The notes beneath the pieces were generated by a model. The model was not told the DNA's origin, did no database searches, and saw only the letters and a program-made list of their open reading frames with translations. From positions 1 through 37,054 of the forward strand of contig LNFR01000074.1 in the NCBI GenBank assembly GCA_001567185.1: a DNA stretch of 37,054 nt, in the 5' to 3' direction. The stretch comes from Bacteroidetes bacterium OLB12. Lineage in GTDB: Bacteria > Bacteroidota > Bacteroidia > Cytophagales > Cyclobacteriaceae. A program made the position numbers and the translations under genes. This document shows, piece by piece, positions 23,538 through 29,696 of the stretch; within the stretch, counting starts at the first letter, position 1, and every line of letters begins with the position of its first letter.

Positions 23538-23542
23538 AGTTG

Positions 23543-23689
23543 CTGTAGAGGGAGGGGTCGAACCTCCACGGAGAAGTTAGCTGCAAGGCATAAGAAAACA
23601 TTTTAGTGGTCAACCCATTACCTTGCGTTTATCCTTTGCTCTCCACCCCCGAGACAGGAGGGCATGTCTGCCAATTTCAACACCCTACA
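23543..23689 (-). ncRNA. tRNA-like RNA with an unusually large variable domain
   Basis: On the minus strand the ends pair into a 7-bp acceptor stem (TGTAGGG with CTCTACA, one G-U), with G as discriminator and no encoded CCA. Next come a D-arm whose loop AAATTGGCAGA keeps the G18G19 pair and has tRNA-Leu-like length but a weak stem, and a 5-bp anticodon stem CCCTC/GGGGG with loop CTGTCTC (formal anticodon GTC, unusual T37). The T-arm is perfect: GGAGG-TTCGACC-CCTCC. Between anticodon and T arms lie 78 nt (23568-23645) instead of the usual 4-20, themselves foldable: outer GGAGA/TCTCC and inner GCAAGG/CCTTGC. A strong terminator follows. It does not fit tRNA-Asp, tmRNA, or a tRNA with a normal group I intron (insert too short). 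Could also be a decayed tRNA. Confidence 0.6.
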
Positions 23690-23759: not shown

Positions 23760-23867
23760 ACAAAGTAACGAAAACATTGAGTCTATTGTCAATACTATTT
23801 ATAATTATTTGTATAATTTTTAATATTTTTGGTCAATATTTATAAAATCACTAAAAACAATGCTTCG

Positions 23868-24332
23868 ATGAGTCGCCATTTTGAAATTGATAACACAGAT
23901 CTTCGGATTCTGGAAATTCTGATGCAAGACGCCAAGCGCCCCTATACGGAAGTTGCCAAGCGGGTGAACGTATCGCAAGGAACGGTACACGTACGCATGA
24001 ATAAGATGGAAGATGCAGGCATTCTGGAAAAAACAACACTCAAAATCAACTATGCCAAACTCGGTTACGACATTACAGCTTTTATAGGTATTTATTTGGA
24101 AAAGAGTGCTTTGTATGAAAAAGTTTTAGCAAAACTTAAAGACATACCTGAGATAACCAACATCCATTATACAACTGGAAACTATAGCATGTTTGTGCGC
24201 ATTCATTGCCGCGATACCAACCACCTGAAAGAGGTTTTGCACGATAAAATGCAACAGGTAGAAGGTATTGAGCGAACCGAAACCATGATTTCGCTGGAAG
24301 AAAGCCTCGATCGGAATCTTAAACTCACTTAA
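23868..24332 (+). CDS. Lrp/AsnC-family transcriptional regulator
   Basis: About 154 residues from the ATG at 23868 (MSRHFEIDNTDLRILEIL). An upstream in-frame start at 23829 adds 13 residues that lack family similarity. The N-terminal helix-turn-helix (about 5-60: AKRPYTEVAKRVNVSQGTVHVRMNKM) is followed by the RAM/AsnC ligand-binding domain (YDITAFIGIYLEK, NIHYTTGNYSMFVRIHC, GIERTETMISLEE). It senses small molecules, usually amino acids, as an octamer or dimer. It directly precedes the suf operon by 89 bp in the same direction, but a regulatory link to Fe-S assembly is not shown. Confidence 0.88.
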   Translation: MSRHFEIDNTDLRILEILMQDAKRPYTEVAKRVNVSQGTVHVRMNKMEDAGILEKTTLKINYAKLGYDITAFIGIYLEKSALYEKVLAKLKDIPEITNIHYTTGNYSMFVRIHCRDTNHLKEVLHDKMQQVEGIERTETMISLEESLDRNLKLT

Positions 24333-24421: not shown

Positions 24422-25867
24422 ATGAGTAAAAGCAACCAGGTTCTGGAGGAAATCACTTCGAAAGAATACGAGCACGGATGGACTGTAAACCTGGAGACCG
24501 ATGAGGCTCCTAAAGGGCTTAATGAAGAAATCGTTCGGTTTATTTCATCTCGCAAGAGCGAGCCTGAATGGCTGTTGGACTGGCGGCTAAAAGCATTTAG
24601 ACAATGGCAGAAGATGGTGGAACCTAAATGGCCCAACGTTACCTACCCTGCTATCAACTATCAAGATATAATTTACTACTCTGCCCCCAAGCAAAAAGTT
24701 AAACCAAAGAGTTTGAATGAAGTTGATCCGGAGTTGATCAAAACTTTTGAGAAACTGGGTATTTCATTAACGGAGCAAAAACGATTAACGGGAGTAGCCG
24801 TTGACGCTGTGATTGACAGTGTTTCTGTTGCAACCACCTTTAAGGAAAAACTCAGCGAGCTTGGCATTATCTTTTGTTCTTTTAGCGAAGCAGTAAAAGA
24901 GCACCCCGAGTTAGTTAAGAAATACCTGGGCTCGGTAGTGCCAATGAATGACAATTATTTTGCTGCCCTTAACTCAGCGGTATTTTCTGATGGTTCATTC
25001 TGCTACATTCCAAAAGGAGTTCGTTGCCCGATGGAACTATCTACCTACTTCCGAATTAACGCAGCCAACACCGGCCAGTTTGAAAGAACATTAATTATTG
25101 CCGATGAAGGTGCTTATGTAAGTTACCTGGAAGGATGCACCGCACCCATGCGCGATGAAAATCAACTGCATGCTGCGGTTGTAGAGCTTTACGCCATGAA
25201 AGGTGCTGAGATTAAATACTCAACCGTTCAAAACTGGTATCCGGGCGATAAAGATGGCAAAGGAGGTATTTACAATTTCGTAACCAAGCGCGGATTGTGT
25301 GCGGGCGATCATTCAAAAATCTCGTGGACACAAGTTGAAACCGGATCAGCCATTACCTGGAAGTATCCCTCCTGCGTATTGAAAGGCGATTATTCTGTTG
25401 GTGAATTTTATTCCGTGGCGGTAACCAATAACTACCAGCAAGCCGATACCGGTACCAAGATGATTCACATTGGTAAGAACACGCGTTCGCGGATTGTGAG
25501 CAAAGGTATTTCTGCGGGTAAATCCCAGAACAGCTATCGGGGCCAGGTACACATATTGAAGCGTGCAACAAATGCGCGTAACCACTCGCAGTGCGACTCG
25601 CTGTTGATGGGCGACCAATGTGGTGCACACACCTTCCCTTACATTGATGTTGAGAATAACTCGGCCCGCATTGAACATGAAGCTACCACATCAAAGATTG
25701 GCGAAGATCAGATCTTTTATTGCTTACAACGCGGCATCGATGAAGAAGCAGCTGTGGCCCTGATTGTAAACGGGTATGCCAAAGAAGTATTGAATCAACT
25801 CCCTATGGAATTTGCGGTAGAGGCGCAAAAGCTTCTCGCATTGACTTTAGAAGGAAGTGTAGGGTAA
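24422..25867 (+). CDS. sufB: Fe-S cluster assembly scaffold protein SufB
   Basis: 481 residues, the standard length. SufB forms the SufBC2D complex that assembles Fe-S clusters. Visible family segments include the N-terminal [91 protein letters not shown], and the C-terminal core [30 protein letters not shown] with the conserved Glu/His residues of the SufB-SufD interface. First gene of the suf operon; followed by the inserted four-helix-bundle ORF rather than directly by sufC. Confidence 0.96.
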
Positions 25868-25870
25868 CTA

Positions 25871-25930
25871 AATTCAAGATTTAAGATTCAAGATTTAAGA
25901 TTTAAAATTTAAGATTCAAGATTCAAGAGT
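25871..25930. repeat. TTCAAGATTTAAG repeat cluster, left side of inserted ORF
   Basis: A low-complexity string of related 7-10-mers (ATTCAAGAT, TTTAAGAT). The 17 bases at 25883-25899 (AAGATTCAAGATTTAAG) are perfectly inverted at 26351-26367 on the other side of the four-helix-bundle ORF, so the two clusters could pair in RNA or DNA. Confidence 0.75.
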
Positions 25931-25934
25931 TAAG

Positions 25935-26324
25935 GTGAGTAAAATAAATTCCTTTGAAGAATTGACGGTATGGCAGCTTTCGCGCGAGTTGGCTAAGGAA
26001 ATTTATGCAATAACTCAGGGAGAGGTATTTTTTAAGGACTATTCATTAAGAGACCAGATTAACAGATCGTGCGGTTCAGTAATGGACAATATTGCTGAGG
26101 GTTTTGAGCGCGGGGGAAACAAAGAATTTTGCCAATTTCTTTACATCGCTAAAGGCTCAAGCGGAGAAACACGTTCGCAGTTGTATCGTGCCTTTGATCG
26201 TGGGTATATAAACAGCAATGAATTTGAAATTCTGAAAGAGAAAGTAGAAAATATAAGTAAACAGTTATCAGGATTTATTCATTATATAAAAAAAATCAGA
26301 TATAAAAAGGAGAAAAATTTGTAA
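25935..26324 (+). CDS. Four-helix-bundle protein (S23 / 23S rRNA intervening-sequence-like)
   Basis: 129 residues starting at GTG 25935 (MSKINSFEELTVWQLSRELA). Diagnostic motifs are the F-E-x-L-x-V-W-x-x-(S/A) start, SLRDQINRSCGSVMDNIAEGFERG, EFCQFLYIAKGSSGETRSQLYRA and a helical C-terminus. The family is found inside 23S rRNA intervening sequences and widely as solo genes in Bacteroidota; its molecular function is not established. Here it sits inside the suf operon, between sufB and sufC, bracketed by inverted repeat clusters, which suggests it travels as a unit. It is in the operon direction and leaves both neighbours intact. Confidence 0.9.
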   Translation: MSKINSFEELTVWQLSRELAKEIYAITQGEVFFKDYSLRDQINRSCGSVMDNIAEGFERGGNKEFCQFLYIAKGSSGETRSQLYRAFDRGYINSNEFEILKEKVENISKQLSGFIHYIKKIRYKKEKNL

Positions 26325-26349
26325 CCGAACCAGAAACCGAATATCCTGA

Positions 26350-26396
26350 TCTTAAATCTTGAATCTTGAATTTTGAATTTTGAATCTTGAATTGAA
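26350..26396. repeat. TTGAATCTTGAATTTTG repeat cluster, right side of inserted ORF
   Basis: Starts with CTTAAATCTTGAATCTT (26351-26367), the exact inverse of 25883-25899, and continues with TTGAATTTTGAAT-type words up to 5 bp before the sufC start. Confidence 0.75.
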
Positions 26397-26401
26397 TAGA
26401 A

Positions 26402-27157
26402 ATGTTAAATATTAAGAACCTACAAGCAAAAATTGGCGAGAAGCAAATCCTTAACGGGATTAACCTGAAAGTAAATGCCGGAGAAGTACACGCTATTATG
26501 GGCCCAAATGGTTCAGGTAAAAGTACGCTTGCCTCGGTATTAGCCGGTCGTGAAGAATATGAAGTTACCGAAGGCCAGGTTGATTTTTTAGGCAAGAACT
26601 TGCTGGAACTTTCACCGGAAGACAGAGCGCGCGAAGGCATTTTCATGGCCTTTCAATATCCGGTAGAAATTCCGGGAGTAAGCACCATTAACTTTATGAA
26701 GACGGCCCTCAACCAGATTCGCGAATACCGGGGCCAGCAGGCATTAGATGCTGTTTCGTTTCTTCAGATGATGAAAGAAAAAATGAAGTTGGTGGAAATC
26801 GATCAGTCGTTGTTAAACCGTTCGCTCAACGAAGGTTTTTCGGGTGGTGAAGAAAAGCGTAATGAAATTTTTCAAATGGCCATGTTAGAACCCAAACTGG
26901 CCTTGCTGGATGAAACGGACTCCGGCCTGGACATTGATGCCCTGCGCATTGTAGCCAATGGCGTGAACAAACTTCGTAATAAGAACAATGCGGTTGTGGT
27001 TGTAACCCATTACCAACGCCTGCTTGATTACATTGTTCCGGATTTTGTGCATGTGCTTTATAAAGGCAAGATCGTGAAGTCGGGCACGAAAGAGCTTGCG
27101 CTTGAGTTGGAAGCCAAAGGGTATGATTGGATTAAAAGTGAAGCAACGGTAGCATAA
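26402..27157 (+). CDS. sufC: Fe-S cluster assembly ATPase SufC
   Basis: 251-residue ABC-type ATPase of the SufBC2D complex; its ATP hydrolysis drives scaffold rearrangement during cluster assembly. Motifs: Walker A GPNGSGKSTLA, Q-loop FMAFQYPVEIPG (the family-typical YP(V/L)E(I/V)PG), signature FSGGEEKRNEI, Walker B ALLDETDSGLDIDAL and H-loop VVVTHYQRLLDYI. The DETDSGLD form rather than DEP is characteristic of SufC. sufD starts 1 bp after its stop. Confidence 0.96.
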   Translation: MLNIKNLQAKIGEKQILNGINLKVNAGEVHAIMGPNGSGKSTLASVLAGREEYEVTEGQVDFLGKNLLELSPEDRAREGIFMAFQYPVEIPGVSTINFMKTALNQIREYRGQQALDAVSFLQMMKEKMKLVEIDQSLLNRSLNEGFSGGEEKRNEIFQMAMLEPKLALLDETDSGLDIDALRIVANGVNKLRNKNNAVVVVTHYQRLLDYIVPDFVHVLYKGKIVKSGTKELALELEAKGYDWIKSEATVA

Positions 27158-27158
27158 C

Positions 27159-28460
27159 ATGAATACTTCTGCAACCCGAAATCTTACAGCCGAAATCCTG
27201 GATGCACAACAGCCGTTTGATGTAGCTGTTGATTCGCGCAAGCAGGCATGGGAACAATTCCGCCAGTTGGAATTACCAACTGGCAAAAACGAAGAATATC
27301 GCTTCACCCCGGTTACACGGTACCTTGAAAAGAATTTTACCTGGAAAACAGATAATCCGGAAAGCACATTATCGTCAGTACAGGAATGTCTTATACCCCA
27401 ACTCGATGCGAATGTAATTGTATTGGTGAATGGCCGGTACAACGCCTCGTTATCTAAAATTAGTAGTCCGCAATCGGAAGTTACCATAACTCCGCTCAGC
27501 GAAGCTTTTCGAACAGGGCATCCTGCTATTAAAGAGCATTACAACAAACACCTTAACAACCAAAGCGATGCCTGTGCAGCCTTAAATAGTGCCGCCTGGC
27601 AAGAGGGTGTATTTATTTACGTTGGTAAAAATACCGTGGTAGGCAAACCTATTTTTATCCTTCAATTAAATGATGCGTCACAATCGCAGGTAATAACACA
27701 AACGCGTGTGTTTGCTGTTTTAGAAAAAGATAGCAGTGTAGCCGTAATTGAAAAATCAGATACCACCGGCAACCAGTTTGCATTTCATAATTTTGCCGAA
27801 GAATGGATTGTAAGCGAAGGTGCTCACCTGGAATATTGCAAAATCCAAAACGATGCCGGCAAAGTTTGCCAGGTTTCAAATTCGGTTATTTACCAGGCAA
27901 ATAACAGCAAGCTCAATACGTTTACGCTTACGCTGAATGGGCAATTAATCCGGAATAACCTCAACATCCTGATTGATGGAGAAAATTGCGAATCGCATTT
28001 TTATGGGTTGTATTTATTAACAGGAACTACCCATGCGGATAATCATACCGTGGTAGATCACCGAAAGCCTAATTCGTTCAGCAATGAAATGTATAAAGGC
28101 ATTATGGATGGAAATTCGAAAGGTGTTTTTAATGGTAAAATTTATGTGCGGCCACACGCACAAAAAACCAATGCCTTTCAATCCAACAGAAACATTATTG
28201 TTTCAGATTCGGCCACGATAAATACCAAGCCCCAACTTGAAATCTGGGCCGATGATGTGAAGTGCTCACATGGATGTACTTCCGGACAATTAGATGAAGA
28301 AGCATTGTTCTACCTGCGCTCGCGCGGAATTTCAGAAACCAACGCCAAAGCCATGCTTTTGTATGCTTTTGCTGCGGAGGTGCTGGCCCCTATTCAAAAC
28401 GAAACACTGAAAGTGTACCTCGATAACCTGATTGCAGAACGCCTTCACAAAAATTTCTGA
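27159..28460 (+). CDS. sufD: Fe-S cluster assembly protein SufD
   Basis: 433-residue partner of SufB in SufBC2D. The divergent N-terminal half is followed by the conserved beta-helix C-terminal half with HADNHTVVDH, SNEMYKGIMDGNSKGVFNGK, YVRPHAQKTNAFQSNRN and EIWADDVKCSHGCTSGQLDE, the last holding the His conserved at the SufB-SufD interface. The TGA stop shares bases with the sufS ATG (TGATG), so translation is coupled. Confidence 0.94.
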   Translation: MNTSATRNLTAEILDAQQPFDVAVDSRKQAWEQFRQLELPTGKNEEYRFTPVTRYLEKNFTWKTDNPESTLSSVQECLIPQLDANVIVLVNGRYNASLSKISSPQSEVTITPLSEAFRTGHPAIKEHYNKHLNNQSDACAALNSAAWQEGVFIYVGKNTVVGKPIFILQLNDASQSQVITQTRVFAVLEKDSSVAVIEKSDTTGNQFAFHNFAEEWIVSEGAHLEYCKIQNDAGKVCQVSNSVIYQANNSKLNTFTLTLNGQLIRNNLNILIDGENCESHFYGLYLLTGTTHADNHTVVDHRKPNSFSNEMYKGIMDGNSKGVFNGKIYVRPHAQKTNAFQSNRNIIVSDSATINTKPQLEIWADDVKCSHGCTSGQLDEEALFYLRSRGISETNAKAMLLYAFAAEVLAPIQNETLKVYLDNLIAERLHKNF

Positions 28461-29696
28461 TGAAAGTAGCAATGGTCAGCCTTGATGTACAGCAAATCAG
28501 AAGTCAGTTTCCGATTCTGCACCAGCAGGTTAACGGCAAACCATTAATCTATTTTGATAACGCGGCTACCAACCAAAAACCCAAGCAGGTAATTGATGCA
28601 TTAGCGCGTTATTATGAAAATGACAATGCCAATATTCATCGGGGTATCCACACACTTGCCGAACGGGCTACCAAAGCGTATGAAGCCACCCGGCAAGCTA
28701 TGCAGGCATTTGTACATGCAAAGCACGAAGAAGAAATCATTTTTACCCGGGGCGTAACCGAAAGCATTAACCTGGTGGCATCTTCCTATGGACGTGCCTT
28801 TTTACAAGCTGGCGATGAAGTGATTATATCCGGCCTGGAGCATCACTCCAACATTGTACCCTGGCAACTGATTTGCGAGGAGCGCAAAGCAATTCTAAAA
28901 GTCATCCCGGTAACGGAAATTGGCGAACTGGATTTGGATGCCTATAAAAAATTACTATCAGCTAAAACAAAAGTTGTTGCGGTAAACCATGCCTCGAATA
29001 GTTTAGGAACAATCAATCCGGTAAAAAAAATAATTGAGCTGGCCCATCAGGTTGGAGCTGTTGTGTTGATTGATGGTGCCCAGGCCGCTGCGCACCTTCC
29101 CATCGATGTGCAGGAACTGGATTGCGATTTCTATTGTATCTCCTCACATAAAATGTACGGCCCAACCGGCACTGGCATTCTTTACGGAAAAAAAGATTTA
29201 CTGGAAAAAATGCCGCCTTACATGGGCGGAGGGGAAATGATAAAGGAAGTAACGTTTGCCAAAACAACGTATAACGATCTGCCCTACAAATTTGAAGCAG
29301 GCACACCCAACATTGGGGATGTAATTGCCTTAAATGAAGCGGTCAACTTCATCCATGCGTTAGGCAAAGAAAATATTGCTGCGTACGAACATGACTTGCT
29401 TGTTTATGCAGCCGCCCGGTTATCTTCCATTCAAGGCGTACGGTTGATTGGCACTGCCAAAGAAAAAAGTGAGTGTTCAGTCGTTTGTTATTGATGGCAT
29501 TCATCACTTTGATATCGGGCAGATGTTGGATGCACGCGGTATTGCCGTGCGCACGGGCCATCATTGCACCCAGCCTTTAATGGATCGCTTGGGAATTGAG
29601 GGAACTGTACGGGCTTCATTTTCGGTTTATAATACAAAGGCCGAGATTGACCAGTTGGCGGAGGGTGTAGCCAGAATTGTTAACTTTATGAAGTGA
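28460..29696 (+). CDS. sufS: Cysteine desulfurase SufS, frameshifted
   Basis: PLP-dependent enzyme that takes sulfur from cysteine and passes it to SufE. The reconstructed length is about 411 residues. PLP Lys is in SSHKMYGPTGTG (about Lys231), with the supporting His in GLEHHSNIVPW and NHASNSLGTINPV. The uninterrupted frame stops at 29494. Dropping one A from the A6 run at 29463-29468 joins TAKEKVSVQSF to the C-terminal domain, which holds the catalytic Cys in RTGHHCTQPLMDRLG. As written, the enzyme would lack its persulfide Cys, which for an operon gene of this importance points to a sequencing error. A later ATG (codon 5) is an alternative start. Confidence 0.93.

Follow-up and report, generated by a model that had tools for sequence, protein, structure and literature searches.

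What kind of gene folds like a tRNA, carries a long structured domain between its anticodon and T arms, and ends in a terminator of its own? The window (the whole stretch of DNA that was analysed, 37,054 nucleotides) encodes such an RNA on the minus strand, at 23542-23689. Its 148 nt, which include a conserved C after G73, are conserved in relatives and coincide with a match to covariance model R1 (23542-23689). A preliminary description had proposed a minus-strand cloverleaf at 23689-23543 with a Leu-like D-loop containing GG, a perfect T-arm and a 78-nt gap holding stems, and the sequence reads as described.

The acceptor stem has 7 bp: the 5' strand UGUAGGG (23683-23689, minus strand as for all parts of the RNA) pairs with CUCUACA, which is followed by the discriminator G73 (23543) and by C74 (23542; 3' part 23542-23550). 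The D arm (positions 8-26; 23664-23682) reads UG UUG AAAUUGGCAGA CAU G, with C20 and A20a and no U20a, and is tRNA-Leu-like by sequence and by comparison with tRNA-Leu. In the anticodon arm (23645-23663) the stem GCCCUC/GGGGGU closes the loop CUGUCUC (23657-23651), which gives the formal anticodon GUC (23655-23653) and U at position 37. This copy has U33, lacks a purine at 37 and carries all five of G34, U35, C36, C38 and G73. Between the anticodon and T arms lies the 78-nt variable domain (V-domain; 23568-23645). It consists of an outer stem GGAG/CUCC, a 3-bp extension AAG/CUU after a bulge, an internal loop GAUAAAC/AGCUAA, an inner stem GCAAGGUA/UGCCUUGC and the apical motif GGGUUGACCAC (23606-23616). 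With the T arm GGAGG-UUCGACC-CCUCC (23551-23567), the features of a tRNA elbow are present (acceptor and T stems, T-loop UUCRA, D-loop GG).

The terminator claimed earlier is confirmed as an intrinsic terminator-like hairpin of 12 pairs followed by a T run (23537-23509, minus strand). Upstream, TTGAC (23792-23788), a 19-nt spacer and TTACTTTG (23768-23761) form a putative promoter (23761-23792, minus strand). The Bacteroidota promoter consensus is TTTG/TAnnTTTG, and the element in the window is one letter off. TAnnTTTG occurs upstream of 64 of the 126 RNA copies linked to an AsnC-type gene (see below), against a shuffled mean of 12.9. The folding energy (MFE) of the single window sequence is ordinary (z -0.96), and the case must therefore rest on relatives.

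Such relatives are plentiful. Blastn against 58 genomes of the genus (the own genome included) gave a best E value of 2e-17 or lower in 47, five of which (G001, G004, G007, G035, G039) align the RNA only in part; the main matches span query positions 12-161, which is the RNA, and the flanks diverge. For the genus alignment, made with MAFFT, 33 copies were extracted (32 distinct), and one (L007) was left out for a palindrome insert. Among the remaining 31, the 33 pairs are formed in 99.0% of cells and 10 pairs have changed on both sides (shuffled mean 5.5; 0 of 500 shuffles reach 10), against 49-59% paired in slid versions. In 35 diverse short forms pairing holds in 97.7% of the cells, with changes on both sides in 15 of 25 pairs (shuffled mean 7.3; 0/500). 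Compensatory changes, which the preliminary description had named as a check, are thus found at both distances, and its idea of a tRNA-derived RNA that carries an additional structured domain is borne out: the V region is conserved and covaries in its outer stem, its AAG/CUU extension and its inner stem. In the acceptor stem of the short forms, compensated changes occur in pairs 3 to 7, and pairs 1 and 2 are constant. That this is a real, conserved and structured RNA family can be regarded as practically certain.

The family is found in several Bacteroidota families and in their phages. Model R1 matches 99 of 118 genomes of the bacterial family at E <= 1e-15 (112 at E <= 0.01) and 49 of 295 genomes of the class at E <= 1e-15 (127 at E <= 0.01, where the matches beyond the 49 are mostly 83-85-nt and of tRNA-Leu type). 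At E <= 1e-13 it matches 31 of 296 genomes of the phylum, two of which (G698, G706) belong to another class. Among the named-record matches listed are Cyclobacteriaceae, Dyadobacter, Emticicia, Chitinophaga, Niabella, Ferruginibacter, Saprospiraceae, Marivirga, Fulvivirga and others.

Copies were required to end in GC, as do 214 of the 219 model-fetched sequences; of the other five, three are fragments at contig edges, one is a tRNA-Tyr and one a 58-nt remnant (L166). From the 262 copies, three were removed (L087, genuine with an unpaired 5' end; L153, truncated; L212, a false match at a tRNA-Val locus), and the 259 parsed copies measure 109-211 nt with a median of 148. The V-domain is present throughout the family, so that the earlier suggestion of a tRNA with a new insertion falls away: there is no recent insertion or intron. 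Its apex motif, loosely G[AG]T[TCG]GACCAC (GGGTTGACCAC-type), occurs in 137 of the 262 copies. Many loci (L043, L082, L147, L251, L253 and others) hold tandem arrays of 2-3 RNA copies, some with identical bodies and some with differing V-domains. A palindrome, TCCCGATAGCTATCGGGA (with variants), is inserted in several copies or remnants like a small repeat element: in the V-domain of L007, in the anticodon arm at L050:1674-1806 and L050:1854-1986, and in upstream remnants at L005 and L030.

Standard tools do not recognize the RNA. In the window, ARAGORN reports no tRNA or tmRNA gene and Rfam 15 gives no match at the gathering threshold. A permissive Rfam scan of 391 bases returned 20 weak matches, mostly of sRNA models on the terminator, and no tRNA or tmRNA among them. 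Over 55 RNA loci ARAGORN called a single gene, a separate tRNA-Tyr, and missed the RNA itself. The own genome has 35 tRNA matches, none at the position of the RNA, and its genuine tmRNA sits elsewhere (G000:C39). An ordinary tRNA, a tmRNA or an Rfam family is ruled out by these scans and positions. The two checks advised at the outset, with ARAGORN and with Rfam, thus gave no ordinary tRNA or tmRNA in the window, and the stems are conserved in relatives; the labels 'noncanonical tRNA' and 'tRNA-derived RNA' were right in kind. The RNA resembles tmRNA in its tRNA-like ends, in being probably non-decoding and in occurring in phage tRNA arrays, but it has neither a tag frame nor pseudoknots. The molecule is a tRNA-derived noncoding RNA. 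Among open-licence papers we recognized none that describes it, and the family, missed by Rfam and by tRNA finders, appears to be undescribed.

What the RNA might do is suggested by the letters that are held fixed. They were counted only in those 145 distinct copies that came from blastn or a covariance model; loci fetched by pattern (from named records and viruses) were not used for loop counts because the pattern itself dictates the greater part of both the D-loop and the anticodon loop. U1-A72, G2-C71 and G73 are each present in 145 of 145 unselected copies, and C20-A20a in 144, the remaining one being a misparse. The anticodon loop could be parsed in 141 copies: U35, C36 and C38 occur in all of them, G34 in 139 and A34 in two. 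At position 37, where a T had been pointed out in the window copy, 138 loops have T, 2 have C and 1 has G. U33 is found in 105 of the 141, with G, A or C in the other 36. The four unparsed loops read UGUCUC by eye, and two of them are disrupted by the palindrome.

The tRNA-Asp genes of relatives have the loop CUGUCAC in 13 of 13 cases, together with G1-C72 and U20a (13/13). The RNA loop CUGUCUC is therefore the tRNA-Asp loop with A37 changed to U, and the GTC anticodon, earlier regarded as a misfit, becomes the most informative part of the molecule. The D arm points elsewhere: GGGUGAUGAAAUUGGCAGACAUG / GGGTGATGAAATTGGCAGACATG are identical in the tRNA-Leu at L297 and in the RNA copy at L040. 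Judged by its sequence, the RNA is a mosaic of a tRNA-Leu-like D arm, a tRNA-Asp anticodon loop altered at position 37 and a long V-domain. It shares with canonical tRNA-Asp(GUC) six of seven anticodon-loop letters, G73, G2-C71 and a gene-encoded C74, but differs in having U1-A72 rather than G1-C72, no U20a, a Leu-like D arm, U37, a loose U33 and the long V-domain. With class II tRNA-Leu it has the D arm and the position of the V-arm in common (ordinary tRNA-Leu genes match the RNA models at 36-56 bits), whereas anticodon and acceptor differ (G73 in the RNA, A73 in tRNA-Leu) and its V-domain is 4-10 times longer. The GatCAB substrates tRNA-Asn and tRNA-Gln offer a third likeness, since U1-A72 is found in the tRNA-Asn and tRNA-Gln of the own genome as well as in the RNA; they differ from it in that the RNA has the anticodon GUC and lacks the U20a (GGUUA) of the single tRNA-Asn gene.

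Published recognition sets can be laid over these letters. G73, G34, U35, C36 and C38 are reported as strong determinants of aspartate identity, and G1-C72 and G2-C71 as strictly conserved in bacterial tRNA-Asp, where G1-C72 helps the E. coli AspRS (PMC9976931). Amidation of Asp-tRNA-Asn is reported to be conferred by U1-A72, and to be blocked in tRNA-Asp by G1-C72 and U20a (PMC9976931). The RNA carries the published aspartate set except for G1-C72 (U1-A72 in 145/145), and it carries the published amidation signature, U1-A72 without U20a. With the one set lacking only G1-C72 and the other exact, the RNA reads as if it could be loaded by a discriminating AspRS and amidated by GatCAB. Decoding tRNAs usually carry U33 and a purine at 37. 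In the RNA the former is relaxed and the latter lost, so that selection is seemingly not for decoding.

An AsnC-type regulator of the Lrp/AsnC family (23868-24332, plus strand) is transcribed divergently, its start 178 bp from the 5' end of the RNA. Across 199 distinct loci, a Lrp/AsnC-family gene lies divergent on the 5' side of the RNA, 51-465 bp away, in 123, and one further locus has such a gene in another arrangement. The other 75 have no AsnC gene nearby; 62 of these have more than 800 bp of flank, and one (L212) is the false match. L251 and L253, which come from a different class of the phylum, also have the divergent neighbour. Loci L089-L168 comprise 42 that are AsnC-linked, 25 that are unlinked and 7 too short to tell. 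In nine multi-locus genomes, whose neighbourhoods were partly fetched, one locus lies beside an AsnC gene in six, and none does in G103, G151 and G169.

Model scores favour AsnC: the window protein reaches 171 bits with the AsnC model against 46 with Lrp, and nine of nine diverse representatives, including one of the other class (L251), score best with AsnC at 156-187 bits (next best <=97), in every case below the NCBI cut-off of 227. Among solved structures E. coli AsnC is the nearest (2cg4, E 6e-36); in E. coli itself, asnC is divergent from asnA. A possible operator-like palindrome occurs between asnC and the RNA in 45 of 102 intergenic regions, with a log ratio of 94.7 against 28.9 and 19.5 for two mononucleotide shuffles, too weak a control for an operator to be claimed. 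Directly downstream of the AsnC-type gene the window holds a SUF operon (SufB, SufC, SufD, SufS; 24422-29494), and 59 loci, duplicates counted, have a SufB-like gene close to the RNA.

Viruses carry the RNA too. A pattern search of IMG/VR contigs yielded 51 viral stretches, all of which match the broader model R2, as the search pattern makes likely. At least one ARAGORN tRNA or tmRNA is present in 30 of the 51 and a canonical tRNA-Asp in 7; an AsnC gene was found in none of the 51. Two of them (L329, L363) encode phage proteins: endolysin, exonucleases and head maturation protease. In the acceptor letters, which the pattern leaves free, 39 distinct viral copies have U1-A72 in 37, A1-U72 in 2 (L349:13126-13286, L356:6939-7099) and G73 in all 39. 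All parsed viral loops have U33 except for one misparse, though the pattern allowed T or G there. Spread by plasmids or GenBank phages is rejected, as blastn of a plasmid collection and a GenBank phage collection gave no match to the RNA. The 51 viral stretches stand alongside a conserved chromosomal AsnC locus. In the phage tRNA arrays, tmRNA genes are predicted beside the RNA (L339:5143-5517, L348:1511-1856). A second class of tRNA-like RNA is also seen in such arrays (L334:5129-8251, L335:4587-10112, L336:4332-5974, L365:3000-3299, L366:5064-5412, L369, L370, L371). Its two ends read AGTCAGG...CCTGACTAC, and it has a Leu-like D arm, a T arm and a variable 79-150-nt body without an evident anticodon arm.

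Co-occurrence with enzymes was examined in 80 genomes hand-chosen from the family, class and phylum searches (40 RNA-positive, 40 RNA-negative). All 40 RNA-positive genomes exceed the cut-off for GatB, from which GatCAB presence was judged, against 28 of 40 RNA-negative ones (Fisher p 2e-4, kinship ignored), and GatB is encoded in the own genome. The link is one-way and kinship could be its cause. In the 28 GatB-bearing genomes that lack the RNA, GatCAB must do other work, and the presence of GatB because of the RNA is therefore rejected as a general rule. AsnA is found in 1 of 40 genomes of either group, and all 80 have a match to AsnB-type synthetases (over the cut-off in 74), by which trade-offs of the RNA with AsnA and with AsnB are both rejected. 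With AsnB-type enzymes near-universal and AsnA equally rare, the RNA is not the sole source of asparagine. Model R2 gave, among the matches listed for the 40 RNA-negative genomes, only hits of 72-89 nt, and the 30 of these fetched as loci are tRNA-Leu; to the extent of this listing, those genomes lack the RNA. A pattern search detected a canonical tRNA-Asp in 24 of 26 RNA-positive genomes, by which replacement of the decoding tRNA-Asp is rejected; the exceptions are G698 and the own MAG (G000, assembly 92% complete), where none was found by pattern or among the 30 of 35 tRNA loci fetched.

The reading we prefer, held tentatively and somewhat short of an even chance, is that of a tRNA-like RNA charged by AspRS, possibly amidated to Asn, that acts in asparagine homeostasis. 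The RNA would be transcribed from its own promoter and ended by its own terminator and, given its elbow and N73-C74, would be trimmed and CCA-tailed like a tRNA. AspRS would load aspartate by way of the anticodon loop and the discriminator, and U1-A72 with no U20a would make this aspartate a substrate of GatCAB, resulting in an asparagine-bearing RNA. The drifting position 33 and the pyrimidine at 37 would make it a poor decoder, the divergent AsnC-type regulator would control it according to asparagine, and its role may be asparagine supply or sensing. The V-domain, whose internal loop is conserved, might be a docking site for a partner, which is a guess. The steps differ in strength: as far as the identity letters can tell, charging by AspRS is probable, and the whole chain (charging by AspRS, then amidation by GatCAB) is a possibility that we put below one half. 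A little more conjectural is the full picture of an amino acid made on a dedicated non-decoding RNA, first by AspRS and then by GatCAB, with a gene tuned by an AsnC regulator and with phages carrying the same RNA. Against the preferred reading stand the missing G1-C72 of tRNA-Asp, the 28 GatB-bearing genomes that lack the RNA, the AsnB-type synthetases found with or without it, the 75 loci with no AsnC gene close by, the 51 viral stretches that encode none, and AsnC model scores below the cut-off; with U33 in most copies, decoding also keeps some probability.

The anticodon-loop and G73 evidence also fits an RNA that binds AspRS or is charged with Asp and is never amidated, serving as a decoy, a sink, a scaffold (for example of a transamidosome) or a signal. 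Under the control of AsnC, it would tune either AspRS or the balance between aspartate and asparagine; the AsnC neighbourhood agrees with this, a bound partner is suggested by the conserved motifs of the V-domain, and there are published tRNA-like RNAs that use anticodon mimics to bind AspRS or ThrRS (PMC9976931). The fixed U1-A72 and the absence of U20a are explained less simply, however, and two copies have A34; this reading seems rather unlikely, at about one chance in a few.

Slightly less likely again is a structured RNA that is never charged and works in regulation or in protein binding; the tRNA shell would serve processing and stability and the Asp-like loop would be a relic or another binding site. 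In its favour, the V-domain motifs and GUCUC, in which position 37 is a pyrimidine, are conserved to a degree that charging does not require. Against it, that the acceptor end is fixed and that the letters agree with a published identity set would both be coincidental. By a rough estimate, the discriminator and position 38 would fit a given anticodon by chance about once in ten, which leaves this reading some probability. The tRNA-Other of Bacillus cereus provides a precedent, being a tRNA-like element outside translation and within a regulatory RNA (PMC3399842). It differs as an element of a single-species island without the Asp/Asn identity set, and the abstract describes no AsnC link (PMC3399842).

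A tRNA specialised in decoding Asp codons, which would insert Asp or (after amidation) Asn as a backup, as a deliberate mistranslator or in phage translation, is improbable. The tRNA or tmRNA genes called by ARAGORN nearby in 30 of the 51 viral stretches would suit it, as would U33 in 105 of 141 cellular loops and in the parsed viral ones. It is opposed by the canonical tRNA-Asp found by pattern in most RNA-positive genomes (24/26) and in 7/51 viral stretches, by the pyrimidine at 37, by G, A or C at position 33 in 36/141 loops and by a V-domain of 45-100 nt. Allo-tRNAs and other non-canonical tRNAs likewise depart from the standard tRNA fold, but those described have 8/4 to 9/4 acceptor/T branches and are translational, whereas the RNA is 7/5 with a giant V-domain (PMC7609411). 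An artefact, a decayed tRNA gene or a chance cloverleaf, for which the ordinary single-sequence folding energy and the existence of degenerate copies (e.g. L005) might be cited, is refuted by the compensatory changes and opposed by the wide conservation, and its probability is negligible.

Returning to the proposed AspRS-charged and possibly amidated RNA, its fixed letters join two published recognition sets that were never meant for one tRNA, aspartate loading and amidation to asparagine. This makes an open question testable, namely why many bacteria keep GatCAB besides direct Asn-tRNA routes and asparagine synthetases. GatCAB in such bacteria has been left as possibly vestigial (PMC4206432). 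If the preferred reading is true, it would suggest what GatCAB is for in bacteria with a direct route to Asn-tRNA. The RNA gene stands where E. coli has asnA. Should the Asp-to-Asn chemistry hold, this would be a new kind of RNA; should it not, the AsnC-type regulators of Bacteroidota still gain a likely target in this family.
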